This document shows positions 9,966-24,896 of a DNA stretch of 33,779 bases, piece by piece. The notes under the pieces are model-generated. The model saw only the letters and a program-made list of their open reading frames with translations. It was not told where the DNA came from and made no database searches. The stretch comes from Thermoplasmata archaeon (GTDB taxonomy: Archaea > Thermoplasmatota > Thermoplasmata > Lutacidiplasmatales > UBA184), in contig JASHPY010000010.1 of the NCBI GenBank assembly GCA_030037855.1, positions 1-33,779 of the forward strand, given 5' to 3'. Every line of letters begins with the position of its first letter. Within the stretch, counting starts at the first letter, position 1. Position numbers and translations under genes: made by a program.

Positions 9966-11830
9966 GGCGCCGGGTCGGCCCGTCGCCGGGCGATCGCGCG
10001 TCGGAGCGCGGCCGCGACTTCCTGGCCGTCCCGGCGCCCGCGCACCTCGTGCATGACGTCGCCCATAAGGGGAGAGAACGCCGCGTCGCCCCGCTCCGCG
10101 ACCATCGCCCCGTTCTCGTCGACGACCCGGTCGATGAGACGTTCGAGCTCCTCGGGGGTGAGTCCGGAGAGACCCGCTTTCCCGGCCGCTGCGTCGACGG
10201 TGGCGGCGCCTCCCGCCAGTTCCCGAAGGACGGCGGGAATCCCTTCCTTCGCGAACGCGCCGGCCTCCTCGGCCGTCAGCACGGCATCGAGCCGAGCGAT
10301 CGGGAATTCGGGCTCCGGCTCGCCCTCCGCCCGCGGGACCGCCGGAACGTCTTGCACGAGGAGACGGGCGACGAGCCCCGGAGCGTGGCCGCGTCGGACG
10401 AGCTCCTCGAACGGGCCGATGTGGCCGCCCCCGACCAGCTGAAGGACGAGCTCGCGCGCCAGCCCCGTATCGCGGGCGACGCGCTCGCGCGTCACGGACG
10501 GGCGTTCGGGAAGTCGCGCCCCGAGGCGAGCCAAGTGCTCGGGCGTGATCGGGATCGGAGGCAGGTCGGTCTCGGGGTACATCCGCTCACGACCGGGAAG
10601 CGGCCGTGAGTATCGGGTCCGACCGTCCGGCAGCGGGTCCCGGGTCTCCCCGGGGACTCCCTCGATCGCGTCGGCCGCGCGGGCCGCGACCCGACGCAAC
10701 GCGAGCTCGGCCCGGGTCCGATCGGGGTGGGTCACCAGGACGAACGCGTCGTCCGGACCGAGCTCCAGCACCGCGCGGAGGTCCTTCACCTCTCGATCCT
10801 CGACACCGAACGCGGGGAGCTCGTCCGAGTGCAGCAGGCCCTTGGGTCCGACCGCTCGCGCCTGGTCGGCGAGCTCCCGACCCAGTCGTTCGTCGGACCC
10901 AGAAGGCGCGCGCAGGAGTCCGCCGAACCCCGGAAGTCGGAGCGCGAGCACCGAGCCCGCGTGACGACCGGAGCGCGCCAGCGGGCCGCTCGAGACGGAC
11001 GCGAGTCGGTCCGTGACGTCGACGGGTGTCTCCGCCGGCGCGACCGCGCCGCGCCGCTTCAGTTCGGCGCGTACCTCGAGGAGCACCTGCTGACGTCCGA
11101 CCTCCCGGTCGACGTATTCCTGAATCTTCCGCAGCTCCTGCACTCCCTTGATCTCGATCCGACGCCCGCCCTCCGTCGAGACGTTGACGTCCTCCCGGAT
11201 CGTGCCGATCCCCCGCCGGGCCTTTCCGGTCGCGCGCACGAGCGCGCCGATCTCCTCGGCGACCGCGCGCGCCTCGGCGCCGGACGTGATGTCGGGACCG
11301 GTCGCCACTTCGACCAGCGGAATCCCGAGCCGGTCGAGCCGGTACGTCACCTCGCCGTCCGCCTCGCGCACCTTCCGGGCCGCGTCCTCCTCGAGACAGA
11401 TCGAGTCGATAGCATACCGACGACCGTCGAGGTCGAGATGGCCGTCGACCGCGACGAGGGCCGTCCGCTGGAACCCCGAGGTGTTCGACCCGTCGACCAC
11501 GATCTTCCGCATGACCGCGATCTCGTCGACCGGTCGCGCGTCGAGCAGGAGCGCGAGCGTGAGCGCGACGTCGAGCGCGGCCGGGTTGATCGGGTGCGGC
11601 GGCTCCTCGTCGAGGTCAACGAGGCAGCTCGCGTCCGAGACCTCGTAACGGAAGAGGAGTCCGCGGGACGCCTGGAACTCGGTCGCGGGGTCGACCGACC
11701 GGTTCTCCCCGCTCGCCGACCGTAACCGCCGCGCGAACGAGCCTTCGACCGTCTCCGAGAGCTCGCTCGGACAGTCGCAGAACAGCTTCCCCGTCGCGAG
11801 CTGCTGGTGGACTTCGAGACCGGCCTTCAC
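9962..11830 (-). CDS. gatE: Glutamyl-tRNA(Gln) amidotransferase subunit GatE
   Basis: This 622-aa protein is the archaeal GatB-like subunit. It phosphorylates glutamate on misacylated Glu-tRNA(Gln) and accepts ammonia from GatD. The start MKAGLEVHQQLATGKLFCDCPSEL is the diagnostic GatE/GatB N-terminus, and VMRKIVVDGSNTSGFQRTALVA and GIGTIREDVNVST are also conserved. The GatE-specific inserted AspRS-like domain spans roughly residues 250-410 and is followed by the YPETDLPPI segment. A C-terminal YqeY/tail domain (TPEELERLIDRVVDENGAMVAERGDAAFSPLMGDVMHEVRG) binds tRNA. I chose GTG 11830, which overlaps the gatD stop (GTGA). The longer upstream frame in the ORF track is a gatD shadow. Confidence 0.95.
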   Translation of the reverse strand: MKAGLEVHQQLATGKLFCDCPSELSETVEGSFARRLRSASGENRSVDPATEFQASRGLLFRYEVSDASCLVDLDEEPPHPINPAALDVALTLALLLDARPVDEIAVMRKIVVDGSNTSGFQRTALVAVDGHLDLDGRRYAIDSICLEEDAARKVREADGEVTYRLDRLGIPLVEVATGPDITSGAEARAVAEEIGALVRATGKARRGIGTIREDVNVSTEGGRRIEIKGVQELRKIQEYVDREVGRQQVLLEVRAELKRRGAVAPAETPVDVTDRLASVSSGPLARSGRHAGSVLALRLPGFGGLLRAPSGSDERLGRELADQARAVGPKGLLHSDELPAFGVEDREVKDLRAVLELGPDDAFVLVTHPDRTRAELALRRVAARAADAIEGVPGETRDPLPDGRTRYSRPLPGRERMYPETDLPPIPITPEHLARLGARLPERPSVTRERVARDTGLARELVLQLVGGGHIGPFEELVRRGHAPGLVARLLVQDVPAVPRAEGEPEPEFPIARLDAVLTAEEAGAFAKEGIPAVLRELAGGAATVDAAAGKAGLSGLTPEELERLIDRVVDENGAMVAERGDAAFSPLMGDVMHEVRGRRDGQEVAAALRRAIARRRADPAP

Positions 11831-13146
11831 GCCTCGTCTCCCGCTACGTGACGCCACTGGAACTCGCCGGCGACGTCGGAGAGGAGCAGCGCCTCGACCG
11901 CCCTTGGGTCCGTGGCGTGCCCGAGCGCCCAGAGGAGCTTCGTGTAGGCGGCCTCGGGCAGCAGGTCGCCGAGGTAAAGCACGCCCGCGCGCTGGAGCTC
12001 GCGGCCGGTCGCGTAGACGAACGGGTCGACGTTCCCCTCGAGGCACTGCGTCGTCATCGCGACGACCTTGCCGGCCCCGATCGCCCGGCGGATCCACTCG
12101 AGGTGGGCGGCCCCCACATGGCCGAGGCCGGTGCCCGCGAGCACGAGACCGCGCAACTCGTCGGCGAACCGCTCTGCCTGCGTCGGCGTCAGTCCCGGAT
12201 AGAACCAGAGGAGGCCGCCGTGCGGGTCGAGGGGGCCGTCGGCTCGCGGAGGACCCGCCCCGGCCGGTCGGACCGGCTGCTCGAAGTGGATCCCGGTCGC
12301 GTCGACGAACCCGAGCGGGGGGCCGTTCCGGCTCCGGAACGCGTCCCGCCGGCTCGAGTGCATCTTCCGGACCCAGGTGCCGCGATGGATCGCGTACCGG
12401 CCGTCCGAGAGCGCGGCGTGCATGACGACCACGACCTCGCCGAGGAGTCCGCTCCGAGCGACCTCGACGCCCGCGGCGAGGTTCGAGGGACCGTCCGACG
12501 ACGGTCGGTCGGGAGAGCGTTGGGCGCCCACGAGGACGACCGGTCCGGGGAGGTCCTGCAGGAGGAAGCTCAGCGCGGACGCGGTGAACGCGAGCGTGTC
12601 GGTGCCGTGAGCCACGACGACGCCCTGTGCGCCCTCGCCGAAGACGCCGACCACCCGGGACGCGAGCGCCTCCCAGTCCGACGGAGTGATGTCCTCGCTG
12701 AGACGATCGAGGACCGGTACGATGCGTACGCGACCCCGCGTCCCGAGCTCCGGATAGAACTCGAGGATCTCCCGCTCCTCGCGGACGGGGCGGACTCCGC
12801 CGGTTTCGTAGTCCACCCGCGACGCGATCGTGCCACCGGTCGTGAGGAGCGCGACCCACGGGGCGTCATCGACCGGAGCCGGGGCCGCCGTCGGGCCCGG
12901 CGCGCGCTTCCGCTCCTCCCGTGGGTCGTCGCCGATCAGCCGGACCTGAAACGATGGATCCACGCGTACGCCGACATTGTAACCGGAGTCGAGCTTGAGC
13001 TGGACGATGCGCTCCCCCGACATCTCCTGGCGCGGGACGGTGGTCCCGGTCCACGTCGGTCCCCGCGGATCCGAGATCTCCACCCGGCGTCCGGTCGGGA
13101 GCGAGCGCACGACGTCCCACGGGTCGCCACCGTCCGTTCCGGTCAT
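11827..13146 (-). CDS. gatD: Glutamyl-tRNA(Gln) amidotransferase subunit GatD
   Basis: This 439-aa glutaminase subunit releases ammonia from glutamine for GatE. An N-terminal beta-barrel of about 90 residues (RRVEISDPRGPTWTGTTVPRQ...NVGVRVDPSFQVRLIG) precedes an L-asparaginase-like domain. That domain has the catalytic threonine motif TTGGTIAS and the second threonine in VVAHGTDTLAFTASAL, followed by VLVGAQRSPDRPSSDGPSNL. GatDE is used only by archaea, which fixes the domain of life. It is the first gene of the operon gatD-gatE-pgp. A GTTAAG box lies about 40 nt upstream on the minus strand. Confidence 0.95.
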   Translation of the reverse strand: MTGTDGGDPWDVVRSLPTGRRVEISDPRGPTWTGTTVPRQEMSGERIVQLKLDSGYNVGVRVDPSFQVRLIGDDPREERKRAPGPTAAPAPVDDAPWVALLTTGGTIASRVDYETGGVRPVREEREILEFYPELGTRGRVRIVPVLDRLSEDITPSDWEALASRVVGVFGEGAQGVVVAHGTDTLAFTASALSFLLQDLPGPVVLVGAQRSPDRPSSDGPSNLAAGVEVARSGLLGEVVVVMHAALSDGRYAIHRGTWVRKMHSSRRDAFRSRNGPPLGFVDATGIHFEQPVRPAGAGPPRADGPLDPHGGLLWFYPGLTPTQAERFADELRGLVLAGTGLGHVGAAHLEWIRRAIGAGKVVAMTTQCLEGNVDPFVYATGRELQRAGVLYLGDLLPEAAYTKLLWALGHATDPRAVEALLLSDVAGEFQWRHVAGDEA

Positions 13147-13236: not shown

Positions 13237-13276
13237 GACCCCCCTCGGCGCGCCGGGAACGGAAGCGCTTCCGGAT

Positions 13277-13382
13277 GCCCGTGTGGGGTAGCTACGGTTC
13301 GGGACCCTGCCCGATCCGCTGCAGTGGATTATCCTAGAGGCCTGCGGAGCCTCAGACCTGGGTTCGAATCCCAGCACGGGCG
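13277..13382 (+). tRNA. tRNA-Arg (anticodon GCG), intron-containing
   Basis: The acceptor stem GCCCGTG/CACGGGC pairs perfectly and the discriminator is G. The anticodon arm GAGGC-CTGCGGA-GCCTC gives anticodon GCG, reading CGC. The T-arm is CTGGG-TTCGAAT-CCCAG and the variable loop is AGAC. The D-arm only becomes normal if about 30 nt are removed after GGGTAGCTA, leaving GGGTAGCTATGGATTATCCT and a 76-nt mature tRNA. CCA is not encoded. A TATA box lies upstream. The 3' end is duplicated twice downstream, so this gene is the probable attachment site of an integrated element. Confidence 0.9.
13295..13324 (+). other. Predicted tRNA intron in the D-loop
   Basis: This roughly 30-nt insert contains a strong internal hairpin (TCGGG-ACCCTG-CCCGA). 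It is flanked by GTAGC and GCTGC, which pair with one G-U, with three-nt bulges TAC and AGT next to the helix. That resembles a relaxed bulge-helix-bulge recognised by the archaeal tRNA splicing endonuclease. Cutting within the two bulges joins ...TAGCTA to TGGATT... and restores a normal D-loop with G18-G19. Boundaries may shift by one or two nt. Confidence 0.7.
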
Positions 13383-13421
13383 TCCCCCTTCTTGAGTTCG
13401 GATCTTTTGCTGGACGCGGAA
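13360..13421 (+). repeat. Attachment-type repeat A: tRNA-Arg 3' end plus flank
   Basis: The core CGAATCCCAGCACGGGCGT occurs again at repeats B and C with one or two mismatches. The match continues past the tRNA end into CCCC...TTCGGATCTTTTGC..GACGCGG, recognisable in B and C. This is the intact (tRNA-proximal) copy, as expected for the attachment site of a tRNA-targeting element. Confidence 0.7.
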
Positions 13422-13625
13422 GTTGCAGACCGGGCCCGCGCTGTCGCGTTGGGCCCTCGACCACCGAATCCTCCTGCACGATTCCTCGGTTCGGACCTGA
13501 CGCGAGGAGGAGTCTTTCCGATCAAGCCGAATAGCCGATGTGAACTTGTGTCGGTCGGGGGCTCCTTCTCCCGGGATATCGAGCTGACCTCCGCAACGGT
13601 TCTTGAAGAGGCCCGATGGAAACAA

Positions 13626-13631
13626 TTTATA
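13626..13631 (+). promoter_or_regulatory. TATA box of antitoxin 1
   Basis: TTTATA, within AACAATTTATACC, is centred 26 nt before the ATG at 13655, consistent with a leaderless transcript. It favours that ATG over the upstream in-frame ATGs at 13616 and 13643. Confidence 0.6.
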
Positions 13632-13654
13632 CCATCGAAACGATGAATGACTTG

Positions 13655-13897
13655 ATGGCGTCTAGCGATCGAGCGACTAGCATCCCGGTCCACGCGTCAA
13701 CGGTTCGCCTCCTCCAGCAGTTGAAAACGGGTGCCCAGAACTGGGACCAGTTTCTACTGGAGCTCGCCGAACGAGATCTCGACCGGCTCGAAGCGGACAT
13801 TGCGCGGGCTGACTTGGCCCTCTTCCGAGCAGGGAAGGGCGAGCTCGTCCCCTTGAGCGCCGTGAGGCGGGAGTTTCAGACGAAGGCTCGGAAGTAG
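13655..13897 (+). CDS. Antitoxin-like protein of cassette 1
   Basis: The 80-aa product starts MASSDRATSIPVHASTVRLLQQLKTGAQNWDQFLLELAERDL, resembling the short archaeal VapB-type antitoxins (a beta strand with 'TxIxV', then helices 'T...L..LK.G..(Y/W)d..l..L'). These form a ribbon-helix-helix-like dimer that binds its own promoter and the toxin. The C-terminal half is charged and would wrap the toxin. The start is set by the TATA box 26 nt upstream and by similarity to antitoxin 2 (MASTSIAVTQETRQLLESLKTG). The toxin-like gene follows after 3 bp. Confidence 0.65.
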   Translation: MASSDRATSIPVHASTVRLLQQLKTGAQNWDQFLLELAERDLDRLEADIARADLALFRAGKGELVPLSAVRREFQTKARK

Positions 13898-13900
13898 ATT

Positions 13901-14260
13901 GTGGAGACCATCTCCTTCTGGGGTCGATCGTACGCCCAGTTGAGATCGCTTCCCCGAGAGGTCCAACTTGCCTTTGAGTGGGCGATCCTCGAGTTGGAGC
14001 AAGCCCCCGACTCGCTCCCGGAACGGTCGCCTGGGCCGGTCACGATCTCAACCGAGATACTCGAAGGGCCGCTGGGCCTGAGGCGGATTCGAGTAAACCG
14101 CGCGCCGGGAGACTCTGGGTTCCGCGGCATCTACGTGGCGGATGGACGCGTCGTGGTCTTCCTTCGATTTGCTCGGCGCGACCATCAAACGTACCTCCGC
14201 ATCGATAGGGCGGCCAGAGCGGCGCTCCTCGAATTCGGCCTGAAGCCAAGTGACTCTTAG
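13901..14260 (+). CDS. RelE/ParE-like toxin of cassette 1
   Basis: The 119-aa product starts at GTG 13901, 3 bp after the antitoxin stop. It shows the RelE/ParE layout: an N-terminal helical pair (SYAQLRSLPREVQLAFEWAILELEQAP), then a beta-sheet with LRRIRVNRA...GFRGIYVADGRVVVFLRFARRDHQTYLRI. The basic residues and the terminal tyrosine (RRDHQTY) match the usual mRNA-cleaving site of RelE-type interferases. The target is ribosome-bound mRNA if it is RelE-like and gyrase if ParE-like, and sequence alone does not decide. It is probably active only when freed from the upstream antitoxin. Confidence 0.65.
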   Translation: METISFWGRSYAQLRSLPREVQLAFEWAILELEQAPDSLPERSPGPVTISTEILEGPLGLRRIRVNRAPGDSGFRGIYVADGRVVVFLRFARRDHQTYLRIDRAARAALLEFGLKPSDS

Positions 14261-14323
14261 TCTCCTCTCGACCCAAGATCACATCGCTCGCCGCCTCACG
14301 AAACTTCGGGCGTGATGCCCTGT

Positions 14324-14414
14324 GCAGAACGAATCTATTCGCCCTACAATGTGGGCGAATCCCAGCACGCGCGTGCCCCATCACCCGTACGTGGATTCTT
14401 TGCCGAACGCAGCG
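14324..14414 (+). repeat. Attachment-type repeat B, degenerate tRNA-Arg 3' copy
   Basis: CGAATCCCAGCACGCGCGTGCCCC matches the tRNA 3' end with two changes. The wider ~90 nt (GCAGAACGAATC...GCCCTACAAT...CCCCATC...CGTGGATTCTTTGCCGAACGCAGCG) aligns with repeat C on both sides of the core. A perfect 8-bp inverted repeat, ATTCGCCC-TACAATGT-GGGCGAAT (14337-14360), replaces the normal T-stem, so this is not a working tRNA. Confidence 0.7.
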
Positions 14415-14501
14415 TTCTACTTTGAGTGGCCGGGGGGTCGTCGACCCGCTTGGGCATGCGTTGATATGCGCCGCTCTCCATATCAGCTATGGGGGCGGGC
14501 T

Positions 14502-14717
14502 ATGGCGAGTACCAGCATCGCAGTGACCCAGGAGACGCGGCAGCTTTTGGAGTCCCTCAAGACAGGGGGCGAGACGTATGACGACGTCATCCGGTCCTTG
14601 ATCGTTTCCCATCCGGTGCGCTTGACCTGGTCGGAGATTGCGCGGCGCATTCGCAAAGAGGAACCAGAGGGTCCGATGGAAGACCTGATCCGGAAGAGCC
14701 GAAAGCAACCCTACTGA
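14502..14717 (+). CDS. Antitoxin-like protein of cassette 2
   Basis: This 71-aa product begins MASTSIAVTQETRQLLESLKTGGETYDDVIRSLIVSHPVRL, a clear archaeal VapB-type antitoxin N-terminus related to antitoxin 1. The rest (TWSEIARRIRKEEPEGPMEDLIRKSRKQPY) is helical and basic. I rejected the longer frame from 14322 because it crosses repeat B. ATG 14502 aligns with antitoxin 1 and has an A/T-rich CCATATC stretch about 20 nt upstream. Its stop overlaps the toxin ATG (TGATG). Confidence 0.65.
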   Translation: MASTSIAVTQETRQLLESLKTGGETYDDVIRSLIVSHPVRLTWSEIARRIRKEEPEGPMEDLIRKSRKQPY

Positions 14718-15073
14718 TGACCTTTCGAATTCGGCGGAAACTCCTCTCCGATCCCGAGTTTCTGGGACTCCCGCCGGATGTGCGGGAGACATTCATCTCC
14801 GTCTTCCGAGAGTTGGCGGTTGCCGAGACCCCAGTACAGAGAACCTCGGCCTGGTACATCGAGGAGCTACACCAACGAAAGAGGCTAGCTCCCGAGGGCA
14901 TCTTCTCGGTCCACGTCAAAGAGGTTGGCGGCAAGCGGTGGCCCTGGCGAGGAGTGTCCTTCCGCCGTGGAAACGATCTTGTGTTTTTCGGATTTGGTCC
15001 ACGTGTGCCGGACTTCTATGTGAAAATGGCACGGGCGCGGGACGCGTTGAGTCGCGAGGACGACGAGCGCTGA
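14717..15073 (+). CDS. RelE-like toxin of cassette 2
   Basis: This 118-aa product is directly coupled to the antitoxin. The layout parallels toxin 1: an N-terminal helical pair (FLGLPPDVRETFISVFRELAVAE), then a beta-sheet ending WRGVSFRRGNDLVFFGFGPRVPDFYVKMARARDAL, which aligns with FRGIYVADGRVVVFLRFARRDHQTYLRI of toxin 1. It keeps an arginine and a tyrosine near the C-terminal catalytic region. Sequence identity to standard RelE is weak, so the call rests on the gene pair, size and layout. It could be an inactive or retargeted relative. Confidence 0.55.
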   Translation: MTFRIRRKLLSDPEFLGLPPDVRETFISVFRELAVAETPVQRTSAWYIEELHQRKRLAPEGIFSVHVKEVGGKRWPWRGVSFRRGNDLVFFGFGPRVPDFYVKMARARDALSREDDER

Positions 15074-15330
15074 TCGGACGTCTCCCGTCGGCTAGCCAGC
15101 GACGGCCCTGAGAGGTCCCGCCCCCGCGCCGGTATCACCGGCAAATCGTGGGAGTCGCTCGGTCACAAACGGCCGTGACCCTACAAGCCGGATGGAGCAC
15201 TCGGACCGCCCGACCAACCTCGATGACGAGTCCGGTCGTGGCCTACCACAGCGCGTCGACTCCAGGTCGGGCCGCGATACTTCCGCCGTCCGCATCGAAA
15301 GGAAGGCAGGTAGCCATGGTGGCAGTAATA

Positions 15331-15339
15331 AGTGAGTGA
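15331..15339 (+). promoter_or_regulatory. Putative TetR operator upstream of tetR
   Basis: AGTGAGTGA lies directly after an A/T-rich AGTAATA promoter stretch, 25 nt before the TTG start of tetR. The same 9-mer occurs next to the SDR promoter at 15954, suggesting a shared operator and autoregulation. Confidence 0.45.
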
Positions 15340-15363
15340 CTTTCATCTAACTGAGGCGGCTCC

Positions 15364-15966
15364 TTGGCACGACCTAAGAGCGAGGCCAAGCGCAATGCCA
15401 TACTCGAGGCGAGCGTCCGGGTGTTCGCGAAGGAGGGCCTGCGGGCCCCCACCTCATCGATCTCCGGCGCTGCCGGAGTGGCCGAAGGGACCCTGTTCCG
15501 GTACTTCCCCACCAAGGACGCCTTGGTCAACGCGGTCTATCAGGACATCAAGGCTGACATCGCGGGGGCGGTCTTCTCTTCCTTTCCACGCAAGGCAGGC
15601 GTACGCACTCGGCTGCGGCACATCTGGAACCGCTACGTTGACTGGGGAGCCGCGCACCCGGCGGCACACCGAGTGGTCAGTGAGATCGAGCTGTGGGGGG
15701 GCCTGACCAGCGAGTCCCGAGCACTCGACGCCGGCAACCTTGCAGAGCTGCAAGCCCTGGCCCAATCCTTCCGCGAGCAGGGCTTAGCGGCGAAGGACCT
15801 CTCGGATGAATACATCGGCAGTGTCATCAACGCCCTTGAGGAGATGACCGTCTCGCTGGTGATCGACGACCCTGATGGCGCCGAACGGTACCGCGACCTG
15901 GGCTTCCAGGTCCTCTGGAACGGAATCACGGCGCGTCCCCGATTGCGAGACTTAGTGAGTGAGTAA
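15364..15966 (+). CDS. TetR/AcrR-family transcriptional regulator
   Basis: The 200-aa product starts at TTG 15364 (MARPKSEAKRNAILEASVRVFAKEGLRAPTSSISGAAGVAEGTLFRYFPTKDALVNAVYQDI). Residues ~8-55 are the TetR helix-turn-helix domain, with the recognition helix in GTLFRYFPTKDAL. The remaining ~140 residues are the helical ligand-binding and dimer domain. TetR proteins repress nearby genes until a small ligand binds. The SDR gene begins 33 bp downstream and has an inverted repeat abutting its TATA box, so it is the likely target. TetR is more common in bacteria, which fits acquisition with the island. Confidence 0.9.
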   Translation: MARPKSEAKRNAILEASVRVFAKEGLRAPTSSISGAAGVAEGTLFRYFPTKDALVNAVYQDIKADIAGAVFSSFPRKAGVRTRLRHIWNRYVDWGAAHPAAHRVVSEIELWGGLTSESRALDAGNLAELQALAQSFREQGLAAKDLSDEYIGSVINALEEMTVSLVIDDPDGAERYRDLGFQVLWNGITARPRLRDLVSE

Positions 15967-15978
15967 ACACTCATATAT
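15954..15978 (+). promoter_or_regulatory. Operator abutting the SDR promoter
   Basis: AGTGAGTGAGTAAACACTCATATAT holds the inverted repeat TGAGT-AAAC-ACTCA (15960-15973), whose last base is the first base of the ATATAT box (15973-15978). That box is centred about 25 nt before GTG 16000. A repressor bound here would block TBP/TFB. The left part repeats the 9-mer found upstream of tetR. Confidence 0.6.
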
Positions 15979-15999
15979 CTCTGCGCGCATGAACGCCTC

Positions 16000-16947
16000 G
16001 TGAGTGCGTGGAACGAGAGGGATATCCCCCTTCAAACGGGGCGACTGGCCATTGTTACCGGGGGTAACAGTGGAATCGGGCTGTTCACGGCACTGGGTCT
16101 CGCTCGTGCCGGAGCCGAGGTGATCATCGCCACGCGCTCGGAGGCGAAGGCGGTGGAGGCGATTCGACAGGTGCGGGCCAGCGTTCCCTCCGCGTCGCTG
16201 CGCTTCGAAGCCCTCGACCTCGCGAGTCTCAGATCGGTACGCGCCTTCGTCCAGCGGGTGGGGCGGCTACCTAAGATTGATTTGCTCGTCAACAACGCAG
16301 CCGTCATGTATATTCCGACGCGGGAGCTGACCGAAGACGGGTTTGAGCGACAGTTCGGCACGAACTATCTCGGTCCCTTCGCCCTGACGTTGGGCCTGCT
16401 ACCTACCCTCCTGCGGTCGCCCCACCCGCGCGTTACCACCGTCTCGAGCGGTGCCGCGAATATGGGATTGAAACGGATCAAGTTCGAGGATCTTGAGTGG
16501 GATCGCGGGTATCGCCATTATCCGGCCTACTGCCAGTCCAAACTCGCGGACCTCATGTTCGCCATCGAGCTAGGCCAGCGGTCCGCTCGTGTCGGAATTC
16601 CGTTGACGAGCAATGCGGCGCATCCGGGTGCGGCTCGCACCAATCTTCTATCGAGCGGGCGGGGCCGCCCGCCCAACCTGGGAGTCCGAATCCTGATTCG
16701 CATCATCGGCCAGTCTGCGGCAGGAGGTGCTCTCTCGGTGCTCCGAGCCTCGACGGACCCGTCCGCCACATCCGGTAGCTATTTCGGGCCATCACGACTC
16801 GGCGGATCGAGAGGTCCCCCCGCACCCGTTGGAGTGCCGGCTCCGGCCTTGGACGCGGGAGCCAGGTCACGTCTCTGGGAGATCTCCGAGCGGCTCACGG
16901 GGGCGCATTGGGATCCGACTCAGCCCCCCGTCCCGTTCGAGAACTGA
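16000..16947 (+). CDS. Short-chain dehydrogenase/reductase (retinol-dehydrogenase-like)
   Basis: This 315-aa Rossmann-fold oxidoreductase carries the nucleotide-binding motif TGGNSGIG (residues ~21-28), the DLAS segment, NNAAV, the catalytic serine in TTVSSGA and the catalytic YCQSK (YxxxK). After the active site there is an HPGAARTNL segment typical of the retinol-dehydrogenase/light-dependent protochlorophyllide-reductase-like SDR subgroup. The cofactor is likely NADP(H), because ATRSEAK after beta2 offers a basic residue. Its substrate may be an aldehyde, ketone or steroid-like xenobiotic and may be the ligand class sensed by the upstream TetR (inference). GTG 16000 is fixed by the TATA box 25 nt upstream. 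Confidence 0.88.
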   Translation: MSAWNERDIPLQTGRLAIVTGGNSGIGLFTALGLARAGAEVIIATRSEAKAVEAIRQVRASVPSASLRFEALDLASLRSVRAFVQRVGRLPKIDLLVNNAAVMYIPTRELTEDGFERQFGTNYLGPFALTLGLLPTLLRSPHPRVTTVSSGAANMGLKRIKFEDLEWDRGYRHYPAYCQSKLADLMFAIELGQRSARVGIPLTSNAAHPGAARTNLLSSGRGRPPNLGVRILIRIIGQSAAGGALSVLRASTDPSATSGSYFGPSRLGGSRGPPAPVGVPAPALDAGARSRLWEISERLTGAHWDPTQPPVPFEN

Positions 16948-17793
16948 CGAAGCCAAACGAGCCACGATCTGAAGGCGAGAGGTCCGACTCGGTGTACGAT
17001 TACCGTCGAGGCGGCCAGCCTCGGCGGGGAGTGCGCTCGTCGGGGCACGCCGGTAGGTACCCTCGACCTCATCGTCGCTGCAGCGGCCCGCCATCACCGA
17101 GCGATAGTTCTGAGCACGGGCACGGACTTCTCGAGGATTCCTCGAACGGTGGTCGAGACGTACTAACGACCTGCGACCGCTGGACCACTGGATAGACTTC
17201 GCAGACGAATCCTATGGCCCTAAAATTGGGACGAATTCCAGCACGGGCGTCCCCATCGTCGGTTCGTGGACTCGTGGCGGAGGGCAGCGTGGCATCTTGC
17301 CCGCCGCTTCTAGGAGGCGGACGCTCCGACTCGCGGAAGGGAACCCTCCGGGCTGCCCGGAGCGCCCCGGCGGCGCCCGACGGGTCTTACCGAGGGGTCG
17401 CAGGACGGACGCCGGGTCGCCGGTGCTCTTTCGGACCGCCGGGCGCGCTCGGCATTGGACCCGTGCGAACCGGTTTGTGTCGGGAGTCCCGGTCGGGCGT
17501 TCGTTCGAGAACGGGACCGATCCGCTGGATCACCCCTCCCGTGCGTTCCCCCGAACTTTCGACGTTCCGTGACTTCCCGGGGAGGCAGCACCGGCCGGCG
17601 TCGAACTTCTGACGGACGAGGGCCGGGGGCGACCCCGATTTCGTGCGCGTCCGTTCCCGGCGGTGACCAACGATTAGATACGCCTCGCGGGTCGGCCCCC
17701 CGTGGCCGTCGGCGGCCGTCACCTCTCCGCGGAGATGCCCACGGACCTCGTGGGATACACTTCGCTTACCCAACGGGACGAATCCGCCTTCCT
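16948..17793. other. Gene-poor stretch at the island's right end
   Basis: About 850 bp without a gene I can support. It contains repeat C (17201-17289). The listed frames here lack plausible starts, promoters or recognisable protein features. It looks like decayed island DNA followed by a junction to the chromosome. Confidence 0.5.
17201..17289 (+). repeat. Attachment-type repeat C, degenerate tRNA-Arg 3' copy
   Basis: CGAATTCCAGCACGGGCGTCCCC matches the tRNA-Arg 3' end with one change in the core. It aligns with repeat B on both sides (GCAGACGAATCCTATGGCCC... and CCCCATCG...TTCGTGGACTC...GGCAGCG). It marks the probable distal end of the island. Confidence 0.7.
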
Positions 17794-19066: not shown

Positions 19067-19540
19067 ATGTCGGCGACGCTGCGCGTGGAGGCCCGCCCGC
19101 CCTCGGAGGGGAGCCTCGACCCGACCTGGCAGGTCCTCCGAGAGGCCAACATCCTTCTGCGGGAGCGTTGGAACCGACGGCTCGACCGCTACGGCCTGTC
19201 GTTCTCGGAGTACGTCGGCCTAGAACTCTCGGACCGACTGCCCTCGAAACCGTCCGACGTCGCTCGCTACATCGGTATCAGCGCGGCCGGGGCGACCGAC
19301 CTGCTCGACCGGCTGGAGACCCGAAAGCTCATCCGACGCGTACCCGACGCGCTCGACCGGCGGGCGGTGTTGATTCGGCTGACCGCGGCGGGCAAACGTC
19401 TGCTCGAGCAGTGCCACGCCGAGAAGGAGGCCGAGATCCAGTTTCTCGACGCGGCGATGACCTCACGGGAGCGCGAGGCGCTCGCCGAAGGCGTCCGGGC
19501 CCTCCGACGTGCGCTCCGTCCCACGCCGGGAGGTGACTAG
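19067..19540 (+). CDS. MarR-family transcriptional regulator
   Basis: This 157-aa protein is a winged-helix MarR regulator. The dimer helices come first (LDPTWQVLREANILLRERWNRRLDRYGLSFSEYVGLELS). Next is the HTH (KPSDVARYIGISAAGATDLLDRLETRKLIRRV), with the wing DALDRRAVLIRLTAAGKRLLEQ containing the conserved D-x-R-x(3)-V-x-L-T. A C-terminal helix completes it. ATG 19067 is chosen over the long upstream extension because the promoter lies in between. It stands immediately before a drug-exporter-like gene, the usual arrangement for a repressor released by the exported compound. Confidence 0.92.
   Translation: MSATLRVEARPPSEGSLDPTWQVLREANILLRERWNRRLDRYGLSFSEYVGLELSDRLPSKPSDVARYIGISAAGATDLLDRLETRKLIRRVPDALDRRAVLIRLTAAGKRLLEQCHAEKEAEIQFLDAAMTSREREALAEGVRALRRALRPTPGGD
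19528..19536 (+). promoter_or_regulatory. Strong Shine-Dalgarno for the MFS exporter
   Basis: GGGAGGTGA, nearly full complement of the 16S rRNA tail, lies 5 nt before ATG 19542. It sets that start rather than the ORF-track start at 19509 and shows internal translation initiation within the marR operon. Confidence 0.75.
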
Positions 19541-19541
19541 G

Positions 19542-21359
19542 ATGGAGTACAAGTGGACCGTCCTTTCGAACACCACGCTCGGAGGGCTCCTCGCCTCCCT
19601 GGACGGCACGATCGTGCTGATCTCGCTCCCGGTCATCTTCAACGGCATCGGGGTCAACCCGCTCCTCCCGGGGAGCTTCCCGCTCCTGATCTGGCTGCTG
19701 CTTGGTTACGGGGTCGTCACCGCGACGCTCCTCGTCACGTTCGGGCGCCTGTCCGACATGTGGGGGCGCGCCCGGATGTACAACCTCGGGTTCGCGATCT
19801 TCTCGACCGGTTCGATCCTCCTGTTCATCGAACCGTGGACCGGCGCGACCGGCGCCTGGGCGCTGGTCGGCTTCCGTCTGATCCAGGCCGTAGGCGCCGC
19901 GTTCCTGTTCGCGAACTCCGCTGCGCTCCTCACCGACGCGTTCCCGGCCAACGAACGCGGGAAGGCGATGGGCGTCAACCAGGTCGCGTTCATCGGCGGG
20001 TCGCTGGTCGGTCTCATCACGGGCGGGATCCTCGCGAGCATTCCGGACCTCCACATCGGTCCGTTCCTCCTGCCGACCTGGCGGCTGATCTTCCTCGTGA
20101 GCGTGCCGGTCGGCGTCGTCGGTACGATCTGGGCGTACGCGCGACTCCGGGAGATCTCGGTCCGGCGGACCGGCCAGAAGATCGACTTCCTCGGGAACGG
20201 GACGTTCGCGCTCGGTCTCACGCTGCTCCTGGTCTCGATCACCTACGGGCTCTTGCCGTACAACGGCCAGCCGATGGGATGGTCGAACCCCTGGGTCGTG
20301 AGCGGGCTCGCCGCCGGCGTCGGCGCGCTGTTCCTGTTCCTCTACATCGAGAGCCGCGTCGCGGACCCGATGTTCAAGCTCGGGCTCTTCCGGAACCGTT
20401 CGTTCGCCGCGGGGAACTCGTCGGCGTTCCTCGGTTCGATCGCGCGGGGCGGCATGATGCTCACGCTGGTCGTCTGGTTCCAGGGGATCTGGCTCCCCCT
20501 CCACGGCTACTCGTTCTCGGAGATCCCGCTGTGGGCGGGGATCTTCATGATGCCGATGATCTTCGGGTTCCTCACCGCGGGTCCGTTGAGCGGGTGGATC
20601 TCGGACCGAAAGGGTCCCCGGGTAATCGCGACGCTGGGGATCTCGATCGCCTCGGCGACGTTCTTCTTCCTCGCGTTCCTTCCGCTCAACTTCCAGTACT
20701 GGGAGATGGGCGTCCTCCTGTACGCCCAGGGGATCGGGATGGGGATGTTCGCCGCTCCGAACGCGGCGTCGGTGATGAGCTCGGTCCCGGCGGAGAATCG
20801 GGGCGCCGCGTCCGGGATGCTCGCGACCCTCCAGAACTCCGGTCAGCAGATCTCGATGGCGATCTTCTTCACGATCATCATCGTCGGCCTCGCCTCGGGT
20901 CTCCACGGATCGGTGAGCGGGGCCCTGGTCGCCGCGCACGTGGGCCAGCCCGACGCGGGGATCCTCTCCGGCGTGGTCGCGTCGAACCCGACCGGCGCCT
21001 TGTTCGGGGCGTTCCTCGGAGAGAACCCGATGCAGTCACTGCTCTACGCCGCCGCGACCGTGCCCGGATGGCAGCCGCTGCCGCCGAACGTCGAGCAGAC
21101 GCTGCTCGCCCCCCACTTCTTCGCGGGGGCGATCTCGACCGCGTTCGGGACCGCGCTCTCGGAGGCGTTCCTGTTCGCCGGCGTCGTGACCGCGGCGGCG
21201 GCCCTGATCTCGTGGATGCGGGGAGAGCGGTACATCTACGGCCAGACCCACGAGACGCCCCGGACGCCGGGAGCCCCGGCGGCCGCCCCCCCGCCGACGT
21301 CGGACCCGCCCGCGGGGGCCGCGGCGGTCGGTTCCCCGGGGATCCGTTCGCGGCCGTAG
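19542..21359 (+). CDS. MFS transporter, DHA2-type multidrug exporter
   Basis: This 605-aa polytopic protein has about 14 TM segments. The N-terminus (LSNTTLGGLLASLDGTIVLISLPVI) carries the DHA2 motif 'LD.TIV..ALP'. The inter-helix 2-3 motif is GRLSDMWGRARMYN and the motif C region is FIGGSLVGLITGGIL. A second GRLSD-like loop appears as GWISDRKGPRV. Such proteins expel hydrophobic or cationic compounds in exchange for protons. The last ~40 residues are a Pro/Ala-rich cytoplasmic tail. It is translated from its own strong Shine-Dalgarno 1 bp after marR and is presumably controlled by it. Confidence 0.92.
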   Translation: MEYKWTVLSNTTLGGLLASLDGTIVLISLPVIFNGIGVNPLLPGSFPLLIWLLLGYGVVTATLLVTFGRLSDMWGRARMYNLGFAIFSTGSILLFIEPWTGATGAWALVGFRLIQAVGAAFLFANSAALLTDAFPANERGKAMGVNQVAFIGGSLVGLITGGILASIPDLHIGPFLLPTWRLIFLVSVPVGVVGTIWAYARLREISVRRTGQKIDFLGNGTFALGLTLLLVSITYGLLPYNGQPMGWSNPWVVSGLAAGVGALFLFLYIESRVADPMFKLGLFRNRSFAAGNSSAFLGSIARGGMMLTLVVWFQGIWLPLHGYSFSEIPLWAGIFMMPMIFGFLTAGPLSGWISDRKGPRVIATLGISIASATFFFLAFLPLNFQYWEMGVLLYAQGIGMGMFAAPNAASVMSSVPAENRGAASGMLATLQNSGQQISMAIFFTIIIVGLASGLHGSVSGALVAAHVGQPDAGILSGVVASNPTGALFGAFLGENPMQSLLYAAATVPGWQPLPPNVEQTLLAPHFFAGAISTAFGTALSEAFLFAGVVTAAAALISWMRGERYIYGQTHETPRTPGAPAAAPPPTSDPPAGAAAVGSPGIRSRP

Positions 21360-21426
21360 CGTCGTCGACGACGGCGCGCCCGACCTCAGAGCGGAAATAG
21401 CTCGGCCGTCTCGGACCCACGCACCG

Positions 21427-22215
21427 ATGCCGACACGCGAGGTCGCGGCCCAGTTCGATGAGATATCGCAGGTCTACGACGCGACCCGGGACCCGCTCGA
21501 GCCGGCCACGGTCGACCGCCTCGCCGAGACCTTGCGGGCCGCCGGTGTCGCCTCGGTCCTCGAAATCGGCGTCGGGACCGGGCGCATCGCCCGCCCGCTC
21601 CTCGAGCGCGGATTCGTCGTCACGGGCCTCGACGCGTCGAGCGGGATGCTCGCGAAGGCCCGCGCGAAGGGCGTTCCCCGGCTCGTTCGCGGGAGCGGCT
21701 ACCACCTTCCGTTCCCGGACCGCGCGTTCGACGCGACGATGCTCGTCCACGTGCTCCACCTCCTCGACACCCCCCGCGAGGTGATCGCCGAAGGACGGCG
21801 CGTCAGCCGTCGCGGGACGTTCGCGATCGTCCGGCCCCGTGCCGGTCGCCCGCCCGAGGAGCGGCCGGCGTTCACCGCGCGCCGGATCGTCTACCGCATC
21901 CTGGCCGAAGAGGGCTATCCGGTGCCGGACCGGTCGCGCGGCCCGCCGCACGTTCGCGAGCGGGAGCTATTGACCGAGCTGCCGCCGGACGACCTCGTCA
22001 TCCTCACCGATCGCACGGTCACCGAGCCGATGACGCGGCCGCTCGAGATGCTCGCCCGGCGGGCGAGCCGCCACACGCTGAACGTGCCGCCCGAGGTGAT
22101 GGCCCGGGCGGTCGCGGCCGCCCGCGCCGAGGTCGGGGACCGGACGTTCACCTACCAGCGCGTCGAAGCGCTCGCCACCTGGCGGTCGCAGCCCCTTCCG
22201 GCGGCGGTCGCCTAG
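21427..22215 (+). CDS. Class I SAM-dependent methyltransferase
   Basis: The 262-aa product begins with FDEISQVYDATRDPLEP, typical of UbiE/type-11 methyltransferases. It has motif I VLEIGVGTGRIARPLLERG, the acidic post-I end VTGLDASSGML (Asp binds the SAM ribose) and motif II FPDRAFDATMLVHVLHLLDTP. The C-terminal ~90 residues are a variable substrate region. The substrate (small molecule, lipid or quinone-like compound) cannot be read. The ATG lies about 30 nt after a GAAATAG stretch. The stop overlaps the convergent aconitase stop by 4 bp. Confidence 0.88.
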   Translation: MPTREVAAQFDEISQVYDATRDPLEPATVDRLAETLRAAGVASVLEIGVGTGRIARPLLERGFVVTGLDASSGMLAKARAKGVPRLVRGSGYHLPFPDRAFDATMLVHVLHLLDTPREVIAEGRRVSRRGTFAIVRPRAGRPPEERPAFTARRIVYRILAEEGYPVPDRSRGPPHVRERELLTELPPDDLVILTDRTVTEPMTRPLEMLARRASRHTLNVPPEVMARAVAAARAEVGDRTFTYQRVEALATWRSQPLPAAVA

Positions 22216-24896
22216 CGAGCGAACCGGTGCTCCATCACATACGGAAGGACCCCGCCGGCCCGGTAGTACTCGAGCTCGGTCGCCGAGTGGAGCTCGGCGC
22301 GCGTGCGGAACCGGACGGTCGACCCGTCCGCTCGGGTCGCGAGGACCTCGACCACGGCGCGCGGCGCGAGCTCCCCGTTCGCGAGCCGGAGCTCGAACGA
22401 CTCCCGCCCGGTGAGGCCGAGCGACTTCCATCCGTGGCCGGGCTCGAACGTGAGCGGCAGCACCCCCATCTCGATCAGGTTCGAGCGGTGGATGCGTTCG
22501 AAGCTCTCCACGATCACGGCGCCGACCCCGAGGAGCCGGGGCCCCTTCGCGGCCCAGTCGCGCGAGCTCCCCTGGCCGTAGCTCTTGCCGCCGAGGACGA
22601 TCAGCGGGACGCCCTCGGCGAGGTAGCGCTCGGACGCCGCGAAGATCGTCGACGGCTCGCCGTCGGGGAGATGGACGGTGACCCCGCCCTCCTTCGGAGC
22701 GGCGAGCTCGTTCTTCAACCGGACGTTGGCGAACGTGCCACGGATCATGACCTCGTGATGGCCGCGGCGCGTGCCGTAGGTGTTGAAGTCGGCGACCGGC
22801 ACGCCGCGCGCGAGGAGCCACTGGCCGGCCGGCGTGCCCTCGGGGATCTCCCCGGCGGGAGAGATGTGGTCGGTCGAGACCCGGTCCCCGAGCACGACGA
22901 GCGCGCGCGCGCCGCGAGCGAGGACGCCCGAGCGCGGGAGCCACGGCGAGGGGAGCTTCAGGTACGGGGCCTCCGCGAGGTAGGTCGACGCGGGGTCCCA
23001 CGGATACTCGAGGCTCTTCGGCACGTCGAGCGCCTCCCAGTGCTCGTCCCCGACCTCGATGTCCCGGTACTTGTCGCGGAACATCCCGGGGTCGAGGCTC
23101 GCCTCGACGATCGAACGGACCTCCTGGGGGCTCGGCCAGAGGTCCTTCAGAAAGATCGGAGTGCCGTCCGCGCGCTTCCCGAGCGGCTGGCTCGAGAGGT
23201 CGAGGTCCATCCGGCCCGCGAGGGCGTAGGCGACCACGAGCATCGGGGACGCGAGGTAGGCGGCCCGGGTGTCGATGTTGATCCGGGCATCGAAGTTCCG
23301 GTTCCCGCTCAGCACCGCGGCGACGTAGAGGTCGTCGCCCCGCACCTGCTCGGAGACGGCGGGGATCAACGGTCCCGAGTTCCCGATGCACGTCGTGCAG
23401 CCGAAGCCGACGACCTCGAACCCGAGCTTCGCGAGCGGAGCGAGGAGCCCGGCCCGCTCGAGATACGAGGTCACGACCTTCGAGCCGGGGGCGAGCGACG
23501 TCTTGACGTGCGGCGGAACGGCGAGCCCGAGCTCGAGCGCCCGGCGCGCCATGATGCCGGCGCCGACCATGACGGACGGGTTCGACGTGTTCGTGCAGCT
23601 CGTGATCGCGGCGATGACGACCGAGCCGTCGGTCACGGGGGCCGGGGCGCCGGGGGCCCGCGGCGCGCGCGAGCGCGCGGGGTGCTCCTTGCGGTACGCC
23701 GCGAGCGCCCGTTGAAACGAGAGCGGGGCGTCGCCGAGCGACACGCTCTCGTCCGGATTGCGCGGGCCGGCGACCGACGGCACGACCGCGCCGAGGTCGA
23801 TCCGCAGGACGTCATCGTAATCGACGCTGCCCGGCGCCGGCGCGCCCCAGAGCCCGGTCGCGCGCGCGTACGCTTCGACGCGGGCGAGGAGCGCGGCGTC
23901 GCGACCCGTGCCCTGGAGGTAGGCGATCGTCGCCGCGTCGATCGGGAAGAGCGCGGCGGTCGCGCCGTACTCGGGGCACATGTTCGAGACCGTCGCGCGG
24001 TCGGCGACCGAGAGGTGCTCTACCCCGGGGCCGAAGAACTCGACGAACCGATCGACCACGCCCTTCTCCCGAAGCTTCCGGGTGACGGTGAGCACGAGGT
24101 CGGTCGCGGTCGCGCCCTGGGGGAGCGCGCCCGCGAGCTCGACCCCGACCACCACCGGGCGGGGGAGGAAGTACGGCTCCCCGAGCATGACCGCTTCCGC
24201 CTCGATCCCGCCGACGCCCCACGCGAGGACCGAGAGCCCGTTGACCATCGTCGTATGCGAGTCGGTCCCGATCGCGGTGTCGGGGAACGCGACCGCGCCC
24301 CCGGCGTCCCGGCGGGTCGACACGACGCTCGCTAGGTACTCGAGGTTGACCTGGTGGCAGATCCCGTTCCCGGACGGCACGACCCGGGTGTGGAGGTAGG
24401 CTCCCTTCGCCCAGCGCAGGAACCGGTAGCGCTCGTGGTTGCGTTCGTACTCCCGGTCGAGGTTGATGTGGAGCGAGCGCGGCGAACCGAAGCTATCGAC
24501 CTGGACCGAGTGGTCGACGATGAGGTCGACCGGCACGACGGGGTTCACCCGCTCGCTCGGGATCCCTCGAGCGACGGCGGCGGTCCGGAGGATCGAGAGG
24601 TCGACGATCACGGGCACGCCCGTGAAGTCCTGGAGGAGCACGCGCTCCGGGAAGAACGGGAACTCGGTCTCGTCGGAAACGGCCGCGCCGTTCGCGAGCG
24701 CGACGACCGCGTCGAGGTCGGTGCGGTCGGCGTGGTAGTGACGGACGATGTTCTCGAGCAGGATCCGCACGGTGCGCGGGCGCCGGGCGTAGCGGGCCGC
24801 GTCCACCCCGCGGAGGCGCTCGGGGTGGTAGACGAGGGCTCTCTCGGCTCCGAGTGGCGTCATCTCCGCGACGCCCAGCGGGTCGGACTCGCTCAT
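22212..24896 (-). CDS. acnA: Aconitate hydratase (AcnA/IRP type)
   Basis: This 894-aa enzyme interconverts citrate and isocitrate in the TCA cycle. The N-terminal region LLQDFTGVPVIVDLSILR and the segment GTDSHTTMVNGLSVLAWGVGGIEAEAVMLGEP are diagnostic. The [4Fe-4S] ligands are the cysteine of ITSCTNTSNPSVM and the pair in GFGCTTCIGNSGPL. The swivel domain carries STDHISPAGEIP, FNTYGTRRGHHEVMIRGTFAN and GGKSYGQGSSRDWAAKGPRLLGV. Length is full for AcnA. Its ATG is 7 bp after the thiamine-transporter ATPase stop on the same strand, so it may be read from the TPP-riboswitch operon. No separate promoter is evident in that gap. Confidence 0.96.
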   Translation of the reverse strand: MSESDPLGVAEMTPLGAERALVYHPERLRGVDAARYARRPRTVRILLENIVRHYHADRTDLDAVVALANGAAVSDETEFPFFPERVLLQDFTGVPVIVDLSILRTAAVARGIPSERVNPVVPVDLIVDHSVQVDSFGSPRSLHINLDREYERNHERYRFLRWAKGAYLHTRVVPSGNGICHQVNLEYLASVVSTRRDAGGAVAFPDTAIGTDSHTTMVNGLSVLAWGVGGIEAEAVMLGEPYFLPRPVVVGVELAGALPQGATATDLVLTVTRKLREKGVVDRFVEFFGPGVEHLSVADRATVSNMCPEYGATAALFPIDAATIAYLQGTGRDAALLARVEAYARATGLWGAPAPGSVDYDDVLRIDLGAVVPSVAGPRNPDESVSLGDAPLSFQRALAAYRKEHPARSRAPRAPGAPAPVTDGSVVIAAITSCTNTSNPSVMVGAGIMARRALELGLAVPPHVKTSLAPGSKVVTSYLERAGLLAPLAKLGFEVVGFGCTTCIGNSGPLIPAVSEQVRGDDLYVAAVLSGNRNFDARINIDTRAAYLASPMLVVAYALAGRMDLDLSSQPLGKRADGTPIFLKDLWPSPQEVRSIVEASLDPGMFRDKYRDIEVGDEHWEALDVPKSLEYPWDPASTYLAEAPYLKLPSPWLPRSGVLARGARALVVLGDRVSTDHISPAGEIPEGTPAGQWLLARGVPVADFNTYGTRRGHHEVMIRGTFANVRLKNELAAPKEGGVTVHLPDGEPSTIFAASERYLAEGVPLIVLGGKSYGQGSSRDWAAKGPRLLGVGAVIVESFERIHRSNLIEMGVLPLTFEPGHGWKSLGLTGRESFELRLANGELAPRAVVEVLATRADGSTVRFRTRAELHSATELEYYRAGGVLPYVMEHRFAR

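Follow-up and report, generated by a model that had tools for sequence, protein, structure and literature searches.

How do two small toxin-antitoxin (TA) pairs come to lie end to end behind a single tRNA gene, each between copies of the 3' end of that tRNA? The question is raised by a 33,779-nt stretch of DNA from a Thermoplasmata archaeon (GenBank assembly GCA_030037855.1, contig JASHPY010000010.1), referred to here as the window. The source group has been described as Lutacidiplasmatales (PMC9287336), and its named relatives are MAGs, some of acid-soil origin, with UBA184 among them. An initial annotation had proposed that each repeat-bounded cassette carries its own related antitoxin and RelE-like toxin, and that the modules keep each element at the tRNA, giving cassettes that can be stacked. 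Both TA pairs were recovered at the positions it gave, and the three copies of the tRNA 3' end are real, both in the sequence and against a shuffled control: 34 tRNA 3'-end copies were observed against 0.0 expected, shuffled DNA yielding none. The features of the locus, in window positions, are as follows.

11827 to 13146, minus strand: gatD, the left flanking core gene, whose synteny with tRNA-Arg(GCG) is conserved
13276 to 13385, plus strand: tRNA-Arg(GCG) gene, the integration site (ARAGORN with introns allowed), with a 36-nt insertion 5' of the anticodon
13365 to 13391, plus strand: tRNA 3' end, copy 1, the left attachment-like repeat
13614 to 13637, no strand assigned: inverted repeat CGATGG-N12-CCATCG, enclosing a TATA box, AATTTATA, at 13624; kept in the relative G073
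13655 to 13897, plus strand: antitoxin 1, 80 aa, with a ribbon-helix-helix-type N-terminus (HMM family; ATG at 13655)
13901 to 14260, plus strand: toxin 1, RelE superfamily by predicted fold and profile, with a GTG start
14337 to 14360, no strand assigned: right-end inverted repeat ATTCGCCC-N8-GGGCGAAT, abutting the tRNA repeat; G073 and G052 have a similar motif
14356 to 14382, plus strand: tRNA-Arg 3'-end copy 2 (89%), the right end of cassette 1 and left end of cassette 2
14502 to 14717, plus strand: antitoxin 2, 71 aa, DUF7557/VAPB_antitox-like (Pfam E 2e-4 / 6e-4, below cut-offs; HMM family)
14717 to 15073, plus strand: toxin 2, RelE/HigB-like fold by predicted structure
15364 to 15966, plus strand: TetR regulator, cargo of cassette 2 (PF00440, E 2.9e-12)
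16000 to 16947, plus strand: short-chain dehydrogenase (SDR), cargo of cassette 2 (PF00106, E 4.8e-29)
17002 to 17166, plus strand: VapC (PIN) toxin remnant, C-terminal part, immediately ahead of repeat 3 (from the translation; PF01850, E 2.5e-4, below cut-off; profile positions 73-118 of 120)
17232 to 17258, plus strand: tRNA-Arg 3'-end copy 3 (85%), the right end of cassette 2
19067 to 24896, no strand assigned: MarR, MFS, methyltransferase and aconitase genes of the right flank, in relatives close to or directly behind the tRNA

Zero tRNAs were called in the window by ARAGORN at default settings. However, a window without a tRNA was rejected, as allowing introns returned tRNA-Arg(GCG), which in the genus follows gatD at 29 of the 30 loci compared. 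The 36-nt insertion is probably a non-canonical archaeal intron. Relatives carry 36-44 nt at the same position of this tRNA, with one (G049, L272) having no insertion, and standard tRNA calling skips the intron-containing gene or misnames it Gly, Ser or Pro. The three repeats delimit two segments. The first (~990 bp) contains antitoxin 1 and toxin 1 as its sole genes. The second (14382-17232, ~2.9 kb) contains antitoxin 2 and toxin 2 but also TetR, the short-chain dehydrogenase and the VapC remnant, and is thus not TA-only; the proposal of one module per cassette holds in that each has its pair, and needs amending for the additional genes of cassette 2. No integrase gene, nor any other gene for integration or transfer, was found in either segment among the open reading frames or by Pfam. 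That the locus consists of stacked, tRNA-bounded TA cassettes is, as a statement of structure, practically certain.

The two antitoxins are alike, as had been claimed (39% identity over 46 aa, pairwise E=2e-6), and have a common N-terminal strand-helix motif. The toxins align at their C-terminal sheet (28% over 87 aa, pairwise E=0.004), with the RG of RGIY and RGVS aligned and including an invariant arginine; two arginines are invariant in both toxin alignments. Moreover, iterated HMMs started with either toxin, or with either antitoxin, reach identical sets. The suggested RelE fold was recovered for both toxins by structure prediction: the AF2 models (pLDDT 89 for toxin 1 and 84 for toxin 2) have the RelE topology beta-alpha-alpha-beta4-alpha, and Foldseek gave a probability of 1.0 for toxin 1 to archaeal RelE (1wmi/3bpq) and for toxin 2 to 2khe, 1wmi and 7nbu. 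Only weak or chance matches were returned for the four window proteins by PADLOC, NCBIfam and Pfam, and the toxins taken singly fall short of Pfam and NCBIfam cut-offs. A profile of 34 family toxins, searched against the PDB, matched RelE of E. coli (E=4e-8), M. jannaschii (8e-7) and P. horikoshii (1e-4). The toxins are therefore placed, by sequence and predicted fold, in the RelE/ParE superfamily. The expected VapB membership of the antitoxins did not follow: antitoxin 2 scores 20.9 and 21.1 against curated cut-offs of 27.9 and 25 for VapB (PF02697) and DUF7557, and antitoxin 1 has no Pfam match to either.

All four TA genes are under purifying selection, with dN/dS of about 0.08-0.17. Values were 0.17 for antitoxin 1 against G073, 0.08 for toxin 1, and 0.12 for toxin 2 against L080 (against L079, dS for toxin 2 was saturated). 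The inverted repeat at 13614-13637 with its TATA box is a probable promoter/operator of pair 1, and the most likely start of antitoxin 1, at 13655, lies 31 nt past that TATA box. The toxin tree places the two window pairs in separate deep clades of one superfamily, both well supported. On this ground we rejected a tandem duplication of a single TA pair; the pairs were acquired separately. The predicted RelE toxins would be expected to arrest growth or be otherwise toxic, and the two pairs presumably do not cross-neutralise.

Among relatives, the gatD-tRNA-Arg site varies in its occupancy. Aconitase comes next after tRNA-Arg, at 115-430 bp, in G001, G002 and G046, and ~650 bp separate tRNA-Arg from MarR in G020. 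A different RelE pair, in reversed orientation, lies behind tRNA-Arg(GCG) in G042 and G052. One contig of the close relative G073 has gatD, tRNA-Arg and an integrase, in that order. Another contig of this genome starts near a TA1 cassette (80.6% identical to window 13614-14396), which is succeeded by one tRNA-Arg 3' copy, MarR, MFS and aconitase, without TA2, TetR or SDR. The varied occupancy points to tRNA-Arg(GCG) being a variable docking site, with cassette 2 of the window an extra layer relative to G073. In G073 the right-end motif also occurs twice, ~160 bp apart, the later copy near position 1237 of L286; the two bound a gene-free stretch that may be an empty micro-cassette or the product of repeat decay.

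A genus-wide profile search gave about 110 strong antitoxin loci, and the toxin partner was present in all but about ten. Because the antitoxin superfamily as a whole was too diverse to scan contigs with, a closer subset was used; it returned 22 loci, 21 with Thermoplasmata in the title and one whose title reads only 'bacterium'. Thirty three of the 110 antitoxin loci were less than 500 bp from a tRNA, and all 33 lay on its 3' side. Within 3 kb of a tRNA, 53 antitoxin loci were found on the 3' side versus 1 on the 5' side. By chance, ~2% of random positions would be expected less than 500 bp from a tRNA (an estimate based on ~32 tRNAs in the 1.75-Mb genome from which the window comes). At least eleven tRNA isoacceptors are involved in the linkage. 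For roughly half of the family's loci no tRNA context could be detected, in part owing to contig ends. An IMG/VR scan with the antitoxin 2 subfamily alone found nothing, leaving a viral origin unsupported. A single contig (L175, G048:C265) has five antitoxin-family genes in ~4.5 kb, four of them with no partner toxin detected; this stretch may be a dense TA graveyard or an array.

Whether the choice of loci by RelE had itself created the TA-tRNA link was tested on HepT, PIN and acetyltransferase loci picked without regard to tRNAs. Remnants of tRNA 3' ends were found within 1.5 kb in 16 of the 60 HepT and PIN loci, and in 0 of 30 acetyltransferase controls. HepT and PIN loci lay 3' of a tRNA in 13/60 cases and never 5' of one; the acetyltransferase loci lay 3' of a tRNA in 3/30. 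The Fisher test on remnants (16/60 vs 0/30) gave p of about 7e-4, a value that overstates independence because several loci are orthologues. The tRNA link thus recurs at the HepT and PIN loci and is not seen with the acetyltransferases.

Copies of tRNA 3' ends were then scanned for around the family loci (shuffled control: 4 false sites in 80 scans). Twenty eight TA units have tRNA-3' repeats on both sides, at Thr, Lys, Arg, Met, Gln and Cys tRNAs; they range from 650 to 2878 bp with a median of 775 bp, and 21 of them are 650-920 bp. Many units of ~0.7 kb have space for the TA pair alone, and the orientation of the pair relative to the tRNA is variable. Many of the units at any one tRNA are probably orthologues and not separate insertions. 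At least 25 changes of tRNA label were counted on the toxin tree. The clearest is between Lys-CTT and Arg-CCG, two tRNAs with the same 3' strand, CGGGCCCG, at which closely related toxins were found. The pattern anticipated for relatives, homologues with their partner gene, flanked by repeats at tRNA 3' ends, was thus recovered.

Several units of the genus-wide survey were stacked, in agreement with the original suggestion. At tRNA-Thr(GGT) the TA unit immediately follows the tRNA in L082, L083 and L090, and in L088 and L089 it is displaced ~2.2 kb outward, with a partial, 13-15-bp tRNA-3' copy at its left edge. The intervening DNA contains a predicted adenylate-cyclase gene, identified from translations and Pfam-tested only in L086. 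The same outward displacement, with 3.9 kb inserted, is seen at tRNA-Met in L096 and L097. Three consecutive TA cassettes, two RelE-type and one MNT/HepT, lie between tRNA-Gln repeats in L075, and at tRNA-Cys in L072 MazE/PIN, RelE, MNT/HepT and RelE alternate. Other repeat-bounded cassettes contain VapBC (L071, L098, L201) or, on a weak match to MqsA, an MqsA-like pair (L099). Some cassettes have non-TA cargo, namely adenylate cyclase, thioesterase or TetR/SDR. tRNA-bounded cassettes of ~2.2 kb with an adenylate/guanylate-cyclase-like protein are present at tRNA-Thr(GGT) in L087, L088 and L089, with a related gene in L086; found in several species, these cyclase-like cassettes are a second, non-TA cargo class. 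Two copies of tRNA-Arg(TCG) were also noted in the MAG of the window, on contigs with PIN toxins (L229, G000:C48; L227, G000:C93), possibly an element-carried tRNA duplicate or a mixture of strains.

Candidates for the recombinase are available at the same sites. One integrase family is divergent: it matches phrog_1 (E 4e-5) but nothing in Pfam at E<0.01. Its members are found directly 3' of Arg-GCG, Lys-CTT, Met-CAT, Arg-CCT, Phe, Ala and Glu tRNAs, at distances of 52-131 bp, the position that TA cassettes take at several of these tRNAs. The family includes L285:445-1854 in G073 and L416-L434, and relatives occur in 32 of 78 genus genomes. Integrases of the Pfam family adjoin TA pairs in L075, L077, L102 and L186, and one is found behind tRNA-Thr(GGT) in the genome of the window. 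Moreover, an inverted repeat abutting the tRNA repeat at element right ends, as in the window, G073 and G052, is expected of tyrosine-recombinase core sites. From the integrase positions, the right-end repeats and the switches between tRNAs, we infer integration in trans at the T-loop/acceptor region.

The copies of the 3' part of tRNA-Arg(GCG) would then serve as attachment sites for two stacked, integrase-less cassettes. Most likely, a tyrosine recombinase from another element docked at the same tRNA would work in trans, joining the cassette to the T-loop/acceptor region and restoring the tRNA. The old tRNA 3' end would be shifted outward, with earlier cassettes pushed away by later arrivals. 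The TA pair would make loss of the cassette costly and so help it to stay, which is how the modules may keep the elements at the tRNA, as first proposed. Under this mechanism the cassettes would be mobilised in trans, excised, and retained through addiction. No excised or circular form was seen in the assemblies. Overall, the best explanation, and one that we consider reasonably probable, is that of mobile, stacked, tRNA-anchored TA cassettes moved in trans.

A less likely history, though one to be taken seriously, is that full integrative elements (provirus, plasmid or island) with their own integrase decayed to att repeats and a TA pair whose loss was selected against, the units never having moved as TA-only. 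The same tRNAs do host integrase-bearing elements, an integrase C-terminal fragment adjoins the Gln array in L075, cassette 2 of the window retains a VapC remnant, and bacterial ICEs/IMEs are known to decay to CIMEs, followed by tandem accretion (PMC5704250). However, variable leftovers are expected of random deletion, whereas the sizes here are tight (three quarters at 650-920 bp, 21/28) and alike in TA subfamilies that are unrelated, and the flanks are short on either side. Related units of similar size at Lys-CTT and Arg-CCG would, moreover, need either movement of small units or repeated convergent decay. Recombinase-free homologous recombination between tRNA 3' ends, through natural uptake or gene conversion, could also move TA genes, and would suit the switching between tRNAs of common 3' sequence such as these two. 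It is nevertheless very improbable, given repeats of only about 15-27 bp, a conserved inverted-repeat motif adjoining the tRNA repeat as at recombinase core sites, and TA units on the 3' side of tRNAs only. That the pairs are resident chromosomal genes, old and vertically inherited neighbours of the tRNAs, with repeats that are unrelated decay products of other insertions, is scarcely credible: the toxin tree does largely track the tRNA site within some groups (Arg-CCT, Thr-GGT), but the tRNA-Arg locus exists empty, singly and doubly occupied, the empty sites largely contradicting residence, at least 25 site changes are found on the tree, and the pattern is common to unrelated TA families.

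In the literature consulted, these units have their closest counterparts in bacterial CIMEs and the dif modules of Acinetobacter. CIMEs (PMC5704250) are likewise att-bounded, without integration genes and in tandem at one site, newcomers entering the att that adjoins the target gene. However, CIMEs are defined as decayed ICEs/IMEs, whereas the units described here are ~0.8 kb, usually hold a TA operon only, belong to several TA families and recur in an archaeal genus at eight or more tRNA isoacceptors. The dif (pdif) modules, such as the 768-bp add dif TA module (PMC6449649), are similar in being integrase-less and of near-equal size, with one TA pair between recombination sites and a recombinase acting in trans, as inferred here. 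They differ in that the sites here are tRNA 3' ends and not dif/XerCD, on chromosomal tRNAs of an archaeal host and not on plasmids, and the recombinase is probably a tRNA-targeting integrase. Single TA cassettes are also arrayed by a tyrosine recombinase in chromosomal integrons, including archaeal integrons (PMC9668308), but the boundaries here are tRNA 3' ends, no attC sites were noticed, and the arrays lie at many tRNAs, versus one attI platform. In Thaumarchaeota, integrated elements, some of them cryptic, likewise have direct repeats at their target genes, use a tyrosine recombinase and can be integrated in tandem, but those described are multigene and not TA-only cassettes (PMC6563490). 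Archaeal RelBE systems (P. horikoshii 1wmi, M. jannaschii 3bpq) have the same toxin fold, conserved arginines and a small antitoxin upstream in the operon; identity is, however, about 10-22%, and the antitoxins here are weakly DUF7557/VAPB_antitox and not RelB. In the literature within reach of our search, outside which most subscription papers fell, no description of archaeal TA-only tRNA cassettes was found, and the words 'toxin' and 'integrase' are absent from the Lutacidiplasmatales genome paper.

TA units end to end behind many tRNAs, each with copies of the tRNA 3' end, make tRNA genes look like docking ports for addiction modules. We tentatively extend this to a broader proposal, plausible but held with less assurance, in which tRNA genes of Lutacidiplasmatales-type archaea form a distributed cassette platform. 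Several unrelated TA families (RelE, VapBC, HepT/MNT, MqsA-like) would be carried as ~0.8-kb integrase-less units, inserted or reinserted in trans by diversified tRNA-specific integrases, switching between tRNAs with common 3' sequence and piling up by arrival, as a counterpart of integron and dif-module TA arrays.

It has long been asked why chromosomes hold so many TA modules, and whether these are tools of the host or selfish passengers. In the present genus a nearly bare TA payload is found in discrete, countable tRNA cassettes, and sister species range from empty through single to stacked states. This offers a natural system in which TA gain, loss and stabilisation can be tested, together with a recombinase family identified for such tests. 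Taken together, these data add to the archaeal mobilome a tRNA-anchored, integrase-less cassette format.
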